Source: Rhodobacter xanthinilyticus
GTDB lineage: Bacteria > Pseudomonadota > Alphaproteobacteria > Rhodobacterales > Rhodobacteraceae
Length of the DNA: 64,000 bases
Assembly (NCBI RefSeq): GCF_001856665.1
Contig: NZ_CP017781.1
Span: 1,240,001 to 1,304,000 of the forward strand
Direction of reading: 5' to 3'
Both the position numbers and the translations under genes were made by a program. The number at the start of each line of letters is the position of its first letter. Position 1 is the first letter of the stretch. The notes beneath the pieces were generated by a model. The model had not been told where the DNA came from and ran no database searches. It saw only the letters and a program-made list of their open reading frames with translations. Of this stretch, positions 38,251 through 45,056 are shown one piece after another.

Positions 38251-38814
38251 TCAGGCCGCGCCGCGCGGCAGCGCCGCAACGCCGGTGCGCGCCACATCGA
38301 CAAGCCCGAGCGGACGCATCAGCTCGGCAAAGGCGTCGATCTTGTCGGGCGTGCCGGTGATCTCGAAGACGAAGCTCTCGAGCGTCGAATCCACCACATT
38401 GGCGCGGAAGATATCGGCCAGCCGCAGCGCCTCGACGCGCTTCTCGCCGGTGCCCGCGACCTTGAAGAGCGCAAGCTCCCGCTCGACCGGCTGCGCCTCG
38501 GTGGTCAGGTCGATCACCTGATGCACCGGCACGATCCGGCCAAGCTGAGCCTTGATCTGGTCGATCACCGCCATCGTGCCGCGCGTCACGATGGTGATCC
38601 GCGAGCGGTGGCCCTTGTGGTCGATCTCGGCCACGGTCAGGCTGTCGATGTTGTAGCCGCGCCCGGAGAACAGCCCGATCACCCGCGCCAACACGCCGGC
38701 CTCGTTGTCCACCACCACCGCCAGCGTATGGCTGCGCTCCACTTCCGAGTGGAAATCGCGCAGGTCATAGGCCGAATGCGAGGTCGCGCCCTTCTTGATG
38801 TTCAGAGCGGCCAT
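38251..38814 (-). CDS. ilvH: Acetolactate synthase small (regulatory) subunit
   Basis: 187 residues, regulatory partner of IlvI in branched-chain amino acid synthesis; mediates valine feedback. An N-terminal ACT domain (HTLAVVVDNEAGVLARVIGL and FSGRGYNIDSLTVAEID) is followed by the C-terminal domain (ERELALFKVAG, ESFVFEITGTPDKIDAF). The start at 38814 is MAALNIKKG. It follows ilvI after 80 bases that contain a half palindromic repeat, and ends in a strong terminator. Confidence 0.95.
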   Translation of the reverse strand: MAALNIKKGATSHSAYDLRDFHSEVERSHTLAVVVDNEAGVLARVIGLFSGRGYNIDSLTVAEIDHKGHRSRITIVTRGTMAVIDQIKAQLGRIVPVHQVIDLTTEAQPVERELALFKVAGTGEKRVEALRLADIFRANVVDSTLESFVFEITGTPDKIDAFAELMRPLGLVDVARTGVAALPRGAA

Positions 38815-38841
38815 TGCCTCTCTCCTCTGATCGAAATTGCG

Positions 38842-38887
38842 TTCATCTTGCCCCAAATATCCTGGGGGTCCGGGGGCAAGGCCCCCG
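38842..38887. repeat. Class A palindromic repeat, half copy (ilvI-ilvH)
   Basis: TTCATCTTGCCCCAAATATC followed by CTGGGGG and a GGGGGC-AAG-GCCCCC hairpin lies inside the ilvI-ilvH spacer. It could pause transcription or shape the mRNA between the two subunits. Confidence 0.75.
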
Positions 38888-38894
38888 GCTTGTC

Positions 38895-40640
38895 TCACAC
38901 CAGCGCCGCCCCCGAGGTGAAGGCCGCCGCATCGGCCGCGAGCAGCATCTCGTTATGCGGCTTGCCCGAGGGGATCATCGGGAAGCAGTTCTCATGCTTC
39001 TCGACGAGGCAATCGAAGAGCACCGGCCCGTCGTGGTTGATCATCTCCAGGATCGCATCGTCGAGATCCTTCGGATCGGAGACCATGATCCCCTTCCAGC
39101 CAAAGGCCTCGGCGAGCTTCACGAAATCGGGCAGGCTCTCCGACCAGCTTTGCGAATAGCGCCCGCCATGCAAGAGATCTTGCCACTGACGCACCATCCC
39201 GAGCCGCTCGTTGTTGAGGATGAACTGCTTGACCGGGGTGCGGAACTGGGTCGCGGTGCCCATTTCCTGCATGTTCATCAGCCAGCTCGCCTCGCCCGCC
39301 ACGTTGATCACCAGCGCATCGGGATGCGCGATCTGCACGCCGATCGAGGCGGGGAACCCATAGCCCATCGTGCCGAGCCCGCCCGACGTCATCCAGCGGT
39401 TGGGCGCCTCAAATCCCAGAAACTGCGCCGCCCACATCTGGTGCTGGCCCACTTCGGTGGTGATGTAGCGATCGCGCCCCTTGGTCAGCGCCTCGAGCCG
39501 CTCCAGCGCATATTGCGGCTTGATGACCGTTTCCGAGCCCGTATAGGCGAGGCATTTGACCTTCTTCCAGCCGTCGATCTTGGCCCACCACTTGGCCAAG
39601 CCCTCCTTGTTGACCTTGCGCCCGCGCGCCTTCCAGACCTTGAGCACATCCTCGAGCACATGGCCCACATCGCCCACGATCGGCAGATCGACATGCACGA
39701 TCTTGTTGATCGAGGAAGCGTCGATATCGACATGGACCTTGGTCGATTTCGGCGAGAAATCCGAAACCCGCCCGGTGATCCGGTCGTCGAACCGCGCGCC
39801 GAGGTTGATCATCAGATCGCAGTCATGCATCGCGAGATTGGCTTCATAGAGCCCGTGCATGCCGAGCATGCCCAGCCAATGCTTGCCGCTCGCCGGGTAG
39901 GAGCCGAGGCCCATCAGCGTCGAGGTGATCGGGAAGCCGGTCGCATCGACCAGCTCGCACATCAGCTGGCTCGCCGCCGGGCCCGAGTTCACCACCCCGC
40001 CGCCGGTGTAGAAGATCGGCCGCTCGGCGGTCTCGATCAGCTCGACGAGCTTGGTGATCGCCTCGATATCGCCCTTCACCTTCGGCTGATAATTCGAGGT
40101 ATTGGCCTGTTTCGGGCCGGTATAGGTGCCGGTGGCGAATTGCACATCCTTCGGCAGGTCGATCAGCACCGGGCCGGGGCGCCCCGAGGTCGCCACATGG
40201 AAGGCCTGATGGATCGTCTCGGCCAGCTTGTCGGTATCCTTCACCAGCCAGTTATGCTTGGTGCAGGGCCGCGTGATGCCCACCGTATCGGCCTCCTGGA
40301 AACCATCGGTGCCGATCATGAAGGTCGGCACCTGGCCCGAGAACACGACAAGCGGGATGCTGTCCATCAGCGCATCGGTCAGCCCGGTGACCGCATTGGT
40401 CGCGCCGGGCCCCGAGGTCACCAGCGCGCAGCCCGGCTTGCCGGTCGAGCGCGCATAGCCCTCCGCCATGTGGATCGCGGCCTGTTCGTGGCGCACGAGG
40501 ATGTGGCGGATGTCGTTTTGCTGGAAGATCGCATCATAGATCGGCAGGACCGCGCCCCCCGGATAGCCGAAGATCACTTCGACGCCTTGATCCTTGAGCG
40601 CCTGCACCACCATATCCGCGCCGGTCATCTGCCGTGACAT
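38895..40640 (-). CDS. ilvI: Acetolactate synthase large (catalytic) subunit
   Basis: 581 residues from the ATG at 40640; GGAGA precedes it at the best spacing, with ATGs at 40643 and 40652 also possible. Condenses pyruvate to acetolactate or acetohydroxybutyrate. Thiamine-activating E52 in HEQAAIHMAEGYARS. The thiamine-diphosphate motif, usually GDGS or GDA(S), reads GEAS (E450), with N477 27 residues later; the FAD and herbicide-site region PVLIDLPKDVQF is normal. It is probably controlled by the attenuator at 40686-40787. Confidence 0.95.
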   Translation of the reverse strand: MSRQMTGADMVVQALKDQGVEVIFGYPGGAVLPIYDAIFQQNDIRHILVRHEQAAIHMAEGYARSTGKPGCALVTSGPGATNAVTGLTDALMDSIPLVVFSGQVPTFMIGTDGFQEADTVGITRPCTKHNWLVKDTDKLAETIHQAFHVATSGRPGPVLIDLPKDVQFATGTYTGPKQANTSNYQPKVKGDIEAITKLVELIETAERPIFYTGGGVVNSGPAASQLMCELVDATGFPITSTLMGLGSYPASGKHWLGMLGMHGLYEANLAMHDCDLMINLGARFDDRITGRVSDFSPKSTKVHVDIDASSINKIVHVDLPIVGDVGHVLEDVLKVWKARGRKVNKEGLAKWWAKIDGWKKVKCLAYTGSETVIKPQYALERLEALTKGRDRYITTEVGQHQMWAAQFLGFEAPNRWMTSGGLGTMGYGFPASIGVQIAHPDALVINVAGEASWLMNMQEMGTATQFRTPVKQFILNNERLGMVRQWQDLLHGGRYSQSWSESLPDFVKLAEAFGWKGIMVSDPKDLDDAILEMINHDGPVLFDCLVEKHENCFPMIPSGKPHNEMLLAADAAAFTSGAALV

Positions 40641-40685
40641 CATTCTCTCCATTCACCGGGGCCGCGCCCCAACCCGTTTCGCAAC

Positions 40686-40713
40686 AAAAAGCCCTCGCAT
40701 TTCGGGCGAGGGC
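40686..40713 (-). terminator. ilvIH attenuator terminator
   Basis: On the minus strand GCCCTCGC-CCGAAAT-GCGAGGGC-TTTTT. It lies after the leader peptide gene and 46 bases before ilvI. A competing antiterminator is formed by 40747-40755 and 40712-40720 (GCGCATGGG with CCCATGCGC), which overlaps the base of this terminator. Confidence 0.8.
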
Positions 40714-40739
40714 GCATGGGAACCTTCATGGTCAAACCG

Positions 40740-40787
40740 TCACCGGCCCATGCGCGTGATCCCTACGACGACAAGAAGCGAGAGCAT
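40740..40787 (-). CDS. ilvL: ilvIH leader peptide
   Basis: A 15-residue peptide MLSLLVVVGITRMGR and a stop codon, encoded on the minus strand. Seven of its first ten residues are the regulatory branched-chain amino acids: three Leu, three Val and one Ile. AAAGGA lies seven bases before the ATG. Stalling at these codons should free the segment at 40747-40755, which then pairs with 40712-40720 and blocks the terminator. It is too short for usual gene callers. The gene symbol follows the convention for leader peptides. Confidence 0.75.
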   Translation of the reverse strand: MLSLLVVVGITRMGR

Positions 40788-40816
40788 CGCTGATCCTTTC
40801 CATTGCGTTGGGGCGG

Positions 40817-40845
40817 ACATTAGAAAGCCCGGGCGGGGGCGTCAA
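40817..40845 (-). promoter_or_regulatory. ilvIH promoter
   Basis: On the minus strand TTGACG (40845-40840), 17-base spacer, TAATGT (40822-40817). Transcription would start near 40810, about 20 bases before the leader peptide. Position and fit to the sigma-70 pattern support it. Confidence 0.65.
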
Positions 40846-40981: not shown

Positions 40982-41431
40982 TCAGTCCGCCGGAAGGAGC
41001 GCCGGGTTCCAGACCACCTCCCACAGATGGCCGTCGGGGTCGGCAAAATACCCGCCATAGCCGCCCCAGAAGGTCTCCTGCGCGGGCTTGATCACCCGCG
41101 CCCCGGCGGCCCCGGCCGCGGCCATCACCGCATCGACCTCGGCGCGGGTGGCGACATTATGGCCCAGCGAGAGCCGGGTCGCGCCGCCGCCCTCTCCGCC
41201 GCCCTCTCCGCCGCCGCCGCCCGGCGCGAGCCCGGTCTCATGGGCGAGATCCGCCGCGGCCCAGAGCGCGAGCCGCACACCCCCCTCGAGATCGAAAAAC
41301 GCCACCGCCCCATGCTCGAACTCCCGCCCGACGATCCCCGCGCTCGGCCAGCCAAGGCCCGCGTGGTAAAACCCGAAGGCGCGCTCGAGATCGGCCACGG
41401 CCAGGGTCAGAACGGTCAGACGGGGGCGCAT
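40982..41431 (-). CDS. VOC (glyoxalase/bleomycin-resistance fold) protein
   Basis: 149 residues, beta-alpha-beta fold: LTVLTLAVADLERAFGFYHAGLGW at the N-terminus and FWGGYGGYFADPDGHLWEVVWNP at the C-terminus. Residues 71-83 are a GGGGGEGGGEGGG insertion coded by a short 9-base repeat in the DNA, in the loop between the two modules. The metal-site His and Glu are present. The reaction is unknown. Its start overlaps the frame of the frameshifted gene upstream by 16 bases. Confidence 0.8.
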   Translation of the reverse strand: MRPRLTVLTLAVADLERAFGFYHAGLGWPSAGIVGREFEHGAVAFFDLEGGVRLALWAAADLAHETGLAPGGGGGEGGGEGGGATRLSLGHNVATRAEVDAVMAAAGAAGARVIKPAQETFWGGYGGYFADPDGHLWEVVWNPALLPAD

Positions 41432-42569: not shown

Positions 42570-42663
42570 ATTGGCCAAATTTCTTGACCTGCGCCAAGAA
42601 CCCGTCCAAGGAACGCTGACCGCCCCCGGCGCATGGGGGCCAAACAGGGAAGGGGAGGGAGAG

Positions 42664-43233
42664 ATGGGCGGTTTGCTGGCGCTGTCGCGCCTGATCGACC
42701 GGATCAACGAGACGATCGGCAAGGGCGTGTCCTGGCTGATCCTGGCGGCGGTGATCATCTCGGCGGCCAATGCGGTCATTCGCAAGGTCTTCAATATTTC
42801 GTCGAACGCATGGCTCGAGGCGCAGTGGTATCTCTACGGCGCGGCCTTCCTGCTGGCGGCGGCCTATACGCTCAAGCAAAACGAGCATATCCGCATCGAC
42901 ATCGTCTACGGCGCCTTCTCGCGCCGGGTGCAGCACTGGATCGATCTCTTCGGCCATGTGGTGTTCCTGCTGCCCTTCGTCGGGCTGATGCTCTACCTGC
43001 TCGGGCCTTTCGTGATGCGCTCCTATCATTCGGGCGAGATGTCGACCAACGCGGGCGGGCTGATGCTGTGGCCGGCCAAGGCGCTCTTGCTGATCGGCTT
43101 CTCGCAGATGTTCGCCCAAGGGGTGTCGGAGATCATCAAGAAGATCGCGGTGATGCGCGGGCTGATCGAGGACCCGTTCCCGGCGACCGGCCATCACGGC
43201 CTTGATCCGATCGCGAAAGAGGAGGGGCTGTGA
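42664..43233 (+). CDS. dctQ: TRAP transporter small membrane subunit DctQ
   Basis: 189 residues with four predicted membrane helices, the usual DctQ layout (ISAANAVIRKVFNISSNAWLEAQWYLYGA is the signature region, noted here by NAWLEAQWYLYGA; then TLKQNEHIRIDIVYG). ATG at 42664 with GGGAGGGAGAG before it. It partners DctM; the periplasmic binding protein DctP is not in the window. Its stop overlaps the dctM start. Confidence 0.9.
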   Translation: MGGLLALSRLIDRINETIGKGVSWLILAAVIISAANAVIRKVFNISSNAWLEAQWYLYGAAFLLAAAYTLKQNEHIRIDIVYGAFSRRVQHWIDLFGHVVFLLPFVGLMLYLLGPFVMRSYHSGEMSTNAGGLMLWPAKALLLIGFSQMFAQGVSEIIKKIAVMRGLIEDPFPATGHHGLDPIAKEEGL

Positions 43234-45056
43234 TGATGGAACTTATCGCGCAGAACATGGCGCCGATCATGTTCGTCTCGCTGATCTTCTTCCTGCTCTT
43301 GGGCTATCCGGTGGCCTTTGCGCTGGCCGCGAACGGGCTTTTGTTCTTCGTCATCGGCACCGAGCTCGCGCCGCTCTCGAATGGCACGATCAACCTGAGC
43401 TGGCCGCTTCTGAACGCGATGCCGGAGCGGTTCTGGGGGGTGTTGAGCAACGACACATTGCTCGCGATCCCGTTCTTCACCTTCATGGGGATCGTGCTGG
43501 AGAAATCCGGCATGGCGGAGGATCTGCTCGACACGATCGGCCAGCTTTTCGGGCCGGTGCGCGGCGGGCTTGCCTATGCGGTGATCATCGTCGGCGCGCT
43601 CTTGGCGGCGACGACGGGGGTCGTGGCGGCCTCGGTGATCGCGATGGGGCTGATCAGCTTGCCGATCATGCTGCGCTATGGCTATGACCGCTCGCTCGCC
43701 TCGGGCGTGATCGCGGCCTCGGGGACGCTCGCGCAGATCATCCCGCCCTCGCTCGTGCTGATCGTGCTGGCCGACCAGCTCGGCCGCTCGGTGGGCGATA
43801 TGTATAAAGGCGCGCTGATCCCGTCCTTCGTGCTGACCGGGATCTATCTGGGCTATGTGCTGGTGATGTCCTTCCTCAAGCCGCAGTCGATGCCGGCCCT
43901 GCCCAAGGAGGCGCGCACGCTCGGCTCGGGGGTGATGTCGCTGATCGTGGCGCTGGCGATCGGCACGGGGGTCTTCTACGCGGCGTTCAAATGGTTCGAC
44001 AACGGCGTCAACACCAAGAACGCCGAGATCCTGGCGGCCTCGGTGGCGGTGATCGTGACCTATCTCTTGGCGCTGATCGACAAGGGGCTCAAGATCAACC
44101 TGATGAGCCGGCTGGCGCAACAGGTGGTGATCGTGCTGATCCCGCCCTTGGCGCTGATCTTCCTCGTGCTCGGCACGATCTTCCTCGGGGTCGCGACGCC
44201 CACCGAAGGCGGCGCGATGGGCGCGGTCGGGGCGCTGATCCTCTCGGCGGTGAAGCGGCGCCTCGATGGCGGGGTGGTGCGCGAGGCGCTGGCGGCGACG
44301 ACCCGGCTCTCGGCCTTCGTGATGTTCATCCTCCTGGGCGCGCGGGTCTTCTCGCTGACCTTCTACGGCGTGAACGGCCACCTCTGGGTCGAGCATCTCT
44401 TGACCTCGCTGCCGGGTGGCGAGACGGGCTTCCTGATCGTCGTCTCGATCCTGGTGTTCTTCCTCGCCTTCTTCCTCGATTTCTTCGAGCTGGCCTTCAT
44501 CATCGTGCCGCTTCTGGCACCGGCGGCCGAGAAGATGGGGATCGACCTGGTCTGGTTCGGGGTGATCCTCGGCGTGAACATGCAGACCTCGTTCATGCAC
44601 CCGCCGTTCGGCTTCGCGCTGTTCTTCCTGCGCTCGGTCGCGCCGAAGGTGCCCTATCTCGACAAGGTCACCGGCAAGCTCACCGATCCGGTGAAGACCT
44701 CGCAGATCTACTGGGGCGCGGTGCCCTTCGTGTTCATCCAGATCGCGATGATCGGCGTGGTGATGGCCTTCCCGGGGATGGTGATGCATTACAAGGGCAA
44801 GGTCGTGGATCCCTCGACGGTCGAGTTCAAGCTGCCCGACATGCCGGGCCTGGGCGGGCTCGATGGCGGCCTCGGCGGCGGGCTTCCGGGCGCGGCCCCG
44901 GGCGCGCTGCCCGCGCCGGGCGGGCTCGGCCTGCCGCCGCTGGGCGGCCCGGGCGCGCCGACCGGCGCCCCCGCGGCGCCCCCGCAGGGCGGCGACGCGA
45001 GCCTCGGCATCCCCGCCCCGATGGGGCTCGGCACGCTTCCCCCGATCTCGAACTGA
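43233..45056 (+). CDS. dctM: TRAP transporter large permease subunit DctM, with a proline/glycine-rich tail
   Basis: 607 residues. About 12-14 membrane helices (residues 1-525) with the DctM pattern NDTLLAIPFFTFMGIVLEKSG (here NDTLLAIPFFTFMG) and IPPSLVLIVLADQLGRSVG. From about residue 530 a 75-residue tail is rich in Pro, Gly and Ala (GLGGLDGGLGGGLPGAAPGA and similar), not usual for the family. Start ATG at 43233 overlaps the dctQ stop (TGATG). The Na+-coupled substrate, probably an organic acid, cannot be told without DctP. Confidence 0.9.
   Translation: MMELIAQNMAPIMFVSLIFFLLLGYPVAFALAANGLLFFVIGTELAPLSNGTINLSWPLLNAMPERFWGVLSNDTLLAIPFFTFMGIVLEKSGMAEDLLDTIGQLFGPVRGGLAYAVIIVGALLAATTGVVAASVIAMGLISLPIMLRYGYDRSLASGVIAASGTLAQIIPPSLVLIVLADQLGRSVGDMYKGALIPSFVLTGIYLGYVLVMSFLKPQSMPALPKEARTLGSGVMSLIVALAIGTGVFYAAFKWFDNGVNTKNAEILAASVAVIVTYLLALIDKGLKINLMSRLAQQVVIVLIPPLALIFLVLGTIFLGVATPTEGGAMGAVGALILSAVKRRLDGGVVREALAATTRLSAFVMFILLGARVFSLTFYGVNGHLWVEHLLTSLPGGETGFLIVVSILVFFLAFFLDFFELAFIIVPLLAPAAEKMGIDLVWFGVILGVNMQTSFMHPPFGFALFFLRSVAPKVPYLDKVTGKLTDPVKTSQIYWGAVPFVFIQIAMIGVVMAFPGMVMHYKGKVVDPSTVEFKLPDMPGLGGLDGGLGGGLPGAAPGALPAPGGLGLPPLGGPGAPTGAPAAPPQGGDASLGIPAPMGLGTLPPISN

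Follow-up and report, generated by a model that had tools for sequence, protein, structure and literature searches.

Does the short leader in front of ilvIH in Rhodobacter xanthinilyticus control transcription by the mutually exclusive RNA pairing of enterobacterial attenuators, or does its antiterminator work through a different geometry? The question arises from a 64,000-nucleotide stretch of contig NZ_CP017781.1 (hereafter the window, meaning the whole stretch of DNA analysed), in which the two acetolactate synthase genes are preceded on the minus strand by a leader that the initial annotation had described as a complete ilvIH attenuator with a branched-chain leader peptide, a 2:3 pairing replacing a 3:4 terminator as in enterobacteria. 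The first part of this description is well supported by conservation, rare regulatory codons, fixed spacing and the terminator, and the leader is very probably a branched-chain attenuator of ilvIH. The second part is not borne out, since on average the conserved helix takes just the two or three nucleotides nearest the base of the 5' terminator arm, or none.

Anatomy of the ilvIH leader

The features of the leader and of the genes that it precedes are as follows.

40840-40845, minus strand: -35 box TTGACG, read from the sequence and conserved in family leaders
40817-40822, minus strand: -10 box TAATGT, 17 nt from the -35 box and conserved together with it
40794-40797, minus strand: leader Shine-Dalgarno AGGA, 6 nt before the ATG at 40787, a sequence reading
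40740-40787, minus strand: leader ORF MLSLLVVVGITRMGR of 15 codons, ending in the stop codon TGA (40742-40740), with equivalents in 133 of 149 family upstream regions
40764-40784, minus strand: regulatory Leu/Val codons CTC TCG CTT CTT GTC GTC GTA (one Ser within), supported by the family codon bias
40760-40758, minus strand: Ile codon of the leader, 2 nt before X
40747-40755, minus strand: X, GCGCATGGG, the 5' arm of the X:Y helix, within the last leader codons (alignment, pairing)
40737-40746, minus strand: P1 hairpin CCG-GTGA-CGG, directly after X, with the leader stop codon in its loop (covariation over three pairs)
40712-40720, minus strand: Y, CCCATGCGC, the 3' arm of X:Y (alignment, pairing)
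40691-40713, minus strand: terminator stem-loop GCCCTCGC-CCGAAAT-GCGAGGGC, 8 pairs (terminator scan, covariation)
40686-40690, minus strand: terminator U-tract TTTTT, read from the sequence
38895-40652, minus strand: ilvI ORF, acetolactate synthase large subunit (NCBIfam PRK09107, 1117 bits, cut-off 974)
38251-38898, minus strand: ilvH ORF, acetolactate synthase small subunit (NCBIfam PRK11895, 220 bits, cut-off 119)

The promoter TTGACG-N17-TAATGT, the leader ORF, its ribosome site, the inverted repeat and the terminator were all recovered on the minus strand where the initial annotation had placed them. The X:Y inverted repeat is exact in the window leader. The overlap of the terminator with Y, also part of the annotation, does exist, but it amounts to just the first two terminator bases (40713-40712). 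By comparison with relatives, ilvI probably starts at 40640 or 40643, the longest ORF beginning at 40652, and the ilvH start is probably the ATG at 38814. Upstream of the leader, Pfam matches place a glyoxalase-fold gene within 40982-41431 on the minus strand and a TRAP transporter DctQ/DctM pair within 42571-45056 on the plus strand.

Taken individually, the window elements are weak evidence. A generic promoter scan of the leader region scored no site, TAATGT included; chance alone would give about 0.7 terminator-like sites in the scanned stretch; and the leader fold has a z-score of -1.62, with 14 of 200 shuffled sequences folding as well or better.

Conservation, regulatory codons and spacing

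IlvI is present in 147 of 149 same-family genomes, nearly all from different genera. A detector requiring a leader with at least four L/V/I in seven codons, a helix from the leader end to the pre-terminator region, and a terminator matched 136 of the 149 same-family upstream regions, or 133 once three wrongly parsed ones (L100, L107, L111) were removed; some of the 13 misses, L013 and L090 for example, hold X, Y and a terminator by eye. A simple X pattern alone matches 119 of 148 ilvI upstream regions of the family. Because the plan of leader, X:Y and terminator is conserved across the family, a chance origin can be set aside, and the comparison with related genomes that the initial annotation had proposed as a check thus found both the peptide plan and the pairing kept. 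The promoter shares this conservation: of 132 family leaders, 121 have TTGAC(G/C)-N16-18-TA in the preceding 90 nt, compared with 0 of 132 when the same stretches are reversed. In the source genome the exact repeat occurs at one place, and a covariance model of the family, whose training set included the window leader, scores that leader at 74.9 bits, the next best hit reaching 22.7.

In a separate collection of named loci, from which one of 80 was dropped for too short an upstream sequence, a strict pattern found the element in 64 of 79; the closest IlvI relatives there are Sedimentimonas, Rhodobacter and Thioclava. Five of the 15 misses belong to Paracoccus, and several others are variants outside the strict pattern. 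In the Paracoccus loci (L317, L324, L330, L333, L353), neither leader nor terminator was seen in the 230 nt before ilvI. A promoter-like TTGACC stretch is kept before ilvI in these same loci. Outside the family, 105 ilvI upstream regions were found, and the detector matched 8 of the 87 that were read; L175, L195, L215 and L250 were removed as spurious by eye, and L197 was recognised by eye and not counted, so that the outside-family figures are "at least" values. Judged from these regions, the two-hairpin plan appears rare outside the family.

The codons upstream of X are strongly biased. Leu, Val and Ile make up 54.9% of the 1224 codons before X in 132 family leaders, and rare synonyms are favoured: GTA accounts for 52% of the Val codons (n = 339) versus 2.6% in 30 ilvI genes (n = 1329), and CTA for 31% of the Leu codons (n = 187) versus 1.1% (n = 1407). 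CTT and ATT are raised as well (36 versus 10% and 47 versus 10%, leaders versus ilvI), and a third-position bias towards A or T may contribute to the GTA/CTA skew; it is not the whole cause, however, because GTT is lowered (2.9 versus 10.6% in ilvI) and TTA is still rare. Gly codons before X are GGA in 64% versus 3.8% in ilvI, giving a common GTAGGA stretch for which the attenuator model supplies no reason.

Spacing is equally tight. X:Y and the terminator have 1-4 nt in common in 117 of 137 leaders (overlap leaders) and none in the other 20. Among the overlap leaders, the last L/V/I codon lies 7-8 nt from X in 93 of 117, in 96 of 117 the distance from X to the stop codon's end is 7 nt, and the stop codon lies 23-29 nt from the terminator in all 117. 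With these tight distances, a ribosome stalled on the regulatory codons would leave X free, whereas one at the stop codon would cover it. The leader carries three hallmarks of ribosome-mediated attenuators, i.e., pathway codons (by codon content, translation being predicted), a structure placed to depend on ribosome position (from the positions of X, regulatory codons and stop alone), and a terminator between the leader and the first gene. Where the initial annotation had the ribosome stalling at Leu, Val or Ile codons, the Leu and Val positions fit; the Ile codon, 2 nt before X, does not, because under an assumed 12-nt footprint a ribosome there would cover most of X, making this codon a poor sensor. 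In the window leader the signal should therefore be Leu/Val and not Ile.

Pairing was assessed in an alignment of 113 leaders from 113 genera, L040 being left out as a near copy of L011. X:Y is paired in 97.5% of cells, with 4 cells changed on both sides; three of its pairs (columns 5-7 with 49-51) are invariant in all 113 sequences, and both-side changes occur in only 2 of 10 pairs. P1 is paired in about 92% of cells, with 10 both-side-changed cells over three pairs. The terminator is paired in 95.6% of cells with 27 both-side changes, 21 of them in the loop-proximal pair, and two of its pairs are invariant; sliding its structure by one or two columns still gave 20 and 22 both-side changes, yet only 64% and 49% of cells were then paired. 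X:Y with P1, and the terminator, each exceed all 500 column shuffles, which ignore relatedness. Such conservation bears on the idea of translational or Rho-dependent control, in which translation of the leader would protect the RNA and the terminator would be minor. The U-tract terminator can coexist with X:Y, which would suit that arrangement, but a terminator so consistently paired in 113 genera, at a fixed 23-29 nt past the stop codon in every overlap leader, makes it highly improbable.

Several outliers carry a different X:Y sequence that pairs again: GCGCAGTCGC/GCGACTGCGC in L043, GCGCTTG/CAAGCGC in L119 and L133, GCGCGGG/CCCGCGC in L056 and, in other families, TGCGCGCCGA/TCGGCGCGCA in L198 and ACAGCCGCTG/CAGCGGCTGT in L209. 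In none of these listed outliers does X:Y overlap the terminator. The stop codon also lies in the inner-hairpin loop in L140, L187, L197, L198 and L209, as seen by eye. In the core genera, the X:Y sequence itself (alignment columns 2-10 with 46-54) seems more conserved than pairing requires, and its letters are wholly replaced in outlying genera despite this near-invariance. A model in which X:Y blocks the terminator base gives no account of this apparent excess.

A rival reading is that X:Y chiefly serves the terminated RNA of about 120 nt, which would act in trans or need stability, like the trp attenuator RNA rnTrpL, regulation of ilvIH being secondary. The three X:Y pairs invariant in 113 sequences, with only 2 of 10 pairs changed on both sides, are in line with such a role, as is a similar-looking element, Atu_C8, listed as an sRNA in Rfam and matching the window at 24.1 bits; in Sinorhizobium, moreover, an attenuator RNA is known to act in trans. 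Against this, two terminator pairs are equally invariant, other lineages carry an entirely different X:Y sequence, the element remains tied to ilvI within the family, and the Atu_C8 match lies under the 50-bit cut-off. We regard a chiefly trans-acting or stability role as improbable, and retain a ribosome-mediated attenuator as the working interpretation.

The X:Y helix and the base of the terminator

How, then, could X:Y affect the terminator? Of the 20 leaders without common bases, the program gives 19 a gap of 0-6 nt between Y and the terminator, and the remaining one a gap of 12 nt. For five leaders (L028, L127, L130, L139, L207) the program chose another helix, and in the last four of these the gap between Y and the terminator is about 3, 4, 3 and 10 nt by eye. 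In most leaders the X:Y helix abuts the terminator base or shares a few bases with it, and two kinds of folding calculation were applied to this geometry.

With the full terminator present, the equilibrium fold kept the terminator when the ribosome was stalled in 111 of 117 overlap leaders and in 20 of 20 others (median over stall positions). Considering all ribosome positions, 22 of 117 and 3 of 20 leaders, respectively, had at least one position at which the terminator fell below one half, and in the window leader it went down to 0.52 at one stall position. Because the equilibrium fold likewise keeps the terminator in 5 of 6 E. coli leaders, so that real attenuators also fail this test, it was replaced by a co-transcriptional one; and since the terminator stays at equilibrium, any claim of a switch rests on kinetics. 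The co-transcriptional test asks how far the 5' terminator arm has paired with upstream RNA before the 3' arm is transcribed, once for a stalled ribosome and once for a ribosome at the stop codon. As a simplified footprint, a stalled ribosome was taken to cover 12 nt counted from the first base of its codon, and one at the stop codon to reach 9 nt beyond it. The test covered 132 of the 137 leaders (116 overlap, 16 others). Its stall codons were limited to those at which X is not covered, a choice that favours X:Y; the first version had taken all L/V/I codons as stall sites.

The stalled-minus-stop contrast was 0.97, 0.69, 0.81, 0.71 and 0.73 for the E. coli thr, leu, trp, ilv and phe leaders, and 0.00 for hisL, a real attenuator whose arm is captured in both states. 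The family leaders behave differently. Their median contrast is 0.20 in the 116 overlap leaders and -0.24 in the 16 others, and an E. coli-like contrast (above 0.5) was seen in 0 of 116 and 0 of 16. What stalling does change in the overlap leaders is the fate of the base-proximal nucleotides: arm nucleotides 1, 2, 3 and 4 are captured on average at 0.98, 0.85, 0.45 and 0.18 with the ribosome stalled, and at 0.22, 0.14, 0.11 and 0.07 when it is at the stop codon. In the 16 non-overlap leaders tested, stalling yields no gain in arm capture. The window leader itself shows no clear contrast between the two states in this test. For its arm nucleotides 1 and 2, capture is 0.98 and 0.87 in the stalled state and, through other pairings, 0.81 and 0.82 at the stop codon, and its whole-arm mean is higher at the stop codon than stalled; with all L/V/I codons as stall sites, capture was 0.38 (median) and 0.66 (maximum) when stalled versus 0.60 at the stop. 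In the congener L004 the corresponding values for nucleotides 1 and 2 are 0.97 and 0.83 stalled versus 0.49 and 0.48 at the stop. Two other candidates were considered and rejected. An alternative antiterminator would have appeared in the test, which counts any upstream pairing of the arm, yet no leader had an E. coli-like contrast; and the conserved GTAGGA stretch, considered as a partner of the terminator, was judged by eye to pair too weakly.

These results weigh on the textbook view that X:Y is an antiterminator excluding the terminator through common bases, as in the trp, thr and ilv leaders of E. coli. The 1-4 nt in common in 117 of 137 leaders lie next to the U-tract and are the last to close, and the codon positions suit the stalling logic. 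Average capture is, however, confined to two or three base-proximal nucleotides, 20 leaders have no common bases, the listed outliers with a re-paired X:Y have no overlap, and the median contrasts of 0.20 and -0.24, with no single leader above 0.5, compare with 0.69-0.97 for every one of the six E. coli leaders except hisL (0.00). Exclusion of the textbook kind is on this evidence rather unlikely.

The terminator bases next to the U-tract close last, and it is the base-proximal pairs that matter most for intrinsic termination. X:Y together with P1 is the only conserved structure near the terminator that is expected to depend on the ribosome, for which reason we take it to be the switch. With Leu and Val plentiful, the ribosome would reach the stop codon and cover X and P1, leaving Y free, and the terminator would close. 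With Leu or Val scarce, it would stall on the Leu/Val codons that immediately precede X; the X:Y helix could then form around P1 once Y is transcribed, its stem abutting the terminator base. In most leaders, X:Y would hinder the last, base-proximal terminator pairs by retaining 1-4 nt, whereas in those without common bases the helix, hard against the terminator base, would crowd the RNA exit channel. With the terminator base unclosed, RNA polymerase would read through. Stalling adds no arm capture in the non-overlap leaders, and there a steric block must therefore be assumed, which is less plausible at gaps of 6-9 nt.

Collectively, a ribosome-mediated ilvIH attenuator that senses the charging of tRNA-Leu and tRNA-Val via rare codons, with X:Y blocking the terminator base, is the reading we favour and consider reasonably probable. 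The block itself, taken as a separate claim, is put forward tentatively as one serious possibility, its standing being reduced because the window leader lacks a clear contrast. The anatomy, conservation, pairing, codon bias and abutment are direct observations; ribosome stalling, the order of folding and the terminator block are steps that we infer.

Relation to Atu_C8 and to known attenuators

At curated scores, Rfam finds no family in the window. The best sub-threshold match is RF02502 Atu_C8 ("Rhizobiales sRNA"), full length at 24.1 bits with E = 0.0077 for 231 bases searched, below the gathering score of 50 bits. Above the cut-off, Atu_C8 occurs in 1 of 289 class genomes and in 6 of 36 genomes of one alphaproteobacterial order. 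The loci (L151, L387-L391) carry it at about position 1500-1620 of each locus, on the minus strand in L387 and L389, and in G255 Atu_C8 and ilvI lie on different contigs. The resemblance to the family leaders is as follows: a Val-rich leader, e.g., MRMMQVSVVVGRRMGKAA followed by a stop, with VVGxR(M/V)G near its end; an X:Y helix of GCGCATGGG (GCGCGTGGG in L388) with CCCATGCGC; and an inner hairpin holding the stop codon, followed by a terminator. They differ in having 8-9 nt between Y and the terminator and, in 6 of 6, a similar MFS gene downstream instead of ilvI; a 150-residue piece of one such protein has Bcr/CflA as its best model, at 100.5 bits against a whole-protein cut-off of 200.9.

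On these sequence features, Atu_C8 may represent a leader attenuator and not an independent sRNA. The exact X..Y pattern is found in 12 of 385 class genomes, namely five of the window's family, G255 with Atu_C8, and six others; in L267, one of these six, no leader was seen on reading. The covariance model of the 113 leaders scores the Atu_C8 loci at 12.6-20.1 bits, no better than the E. coli his and thr leaders (18.8 and 17.8), whose terminators are unrelated, and because of this we claim likeness and not descent. A broader proposal would make the arrangement a general alphaproteobacterial plan that dispenses with base competition: a stall-dependent hairpin, its inner loop containing the stop codon, would dock on the terminator base and stop the last pairs from forming in the exit channel, Atu_C8 being a second branch, a Val-sensing attenuator before an efflux-type gene. 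We regard this generalization as speculative, and doubtful as it stands.

Attenuation of ilvIH is already described in alphaproteobacteria, and the basic claim made here is in that respect ordinary. The Caulobacter ilvBN/ilvIH attenuator (Tarleton et al. 1994, as cited in PMC4117421) resembles the present one in the operon, the branched-chain leader codons and a terminator before the first gene. PMC1273637 attributes an alphaproteobacterial ilvB leader peptide to Vitreschak et al. 2004, and PMC2573895 gives the same source for an "ilvIH cis regulatory" element in Sinorhizobium; these predicted attenuators are alike in placing a branched-chain leader peptide or cis element before ilvIH or ilvB. 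A literature search covering mainly freely accessible journals found no paper on a Rhodobacteraceae ilvIH leader. Within the class, L187 and L209, which are outside the family, share the two-hairpin arrangement, including an inner loop that holds the stop codon, and their X:Y sequence is a different one. In PMC8632094 the uORFC-8-2 cysS motif of Rhodobacterales is likewise described as an attenuator with two stems and a U-run, but its regulatory codons are Cys codons; of 60 cysS places found in the same family, 30 upstream regions were looked at by eye, and in none of these was the plan noticed.

If the proposed reading is true, attenuation, a textbook case of mutually exclusive RNA pairing, may need just a neighbouring hairpin, which would let synthetic leaders be built to a simple two-part design and raise a directly testable question, i.e., how terminator hairpins enter RNA polymerase; the sRNA family Atu_C8 would likewise be worth re-examining as a leader attenuator. 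Judged from the compared leaders, the ilvIH attenuator is true and widespread, and its antiterminator geometry failed the textbook test. The E. coli ilvL, leuL, thrL, trpL, pheL and hisL leaders share with it a leader peptide, regulatory codons and a terminator, yet five of these six capture most of the 5' terminator arm on stalling, whereas the leaders described here capture 2-3 nt on average or none.
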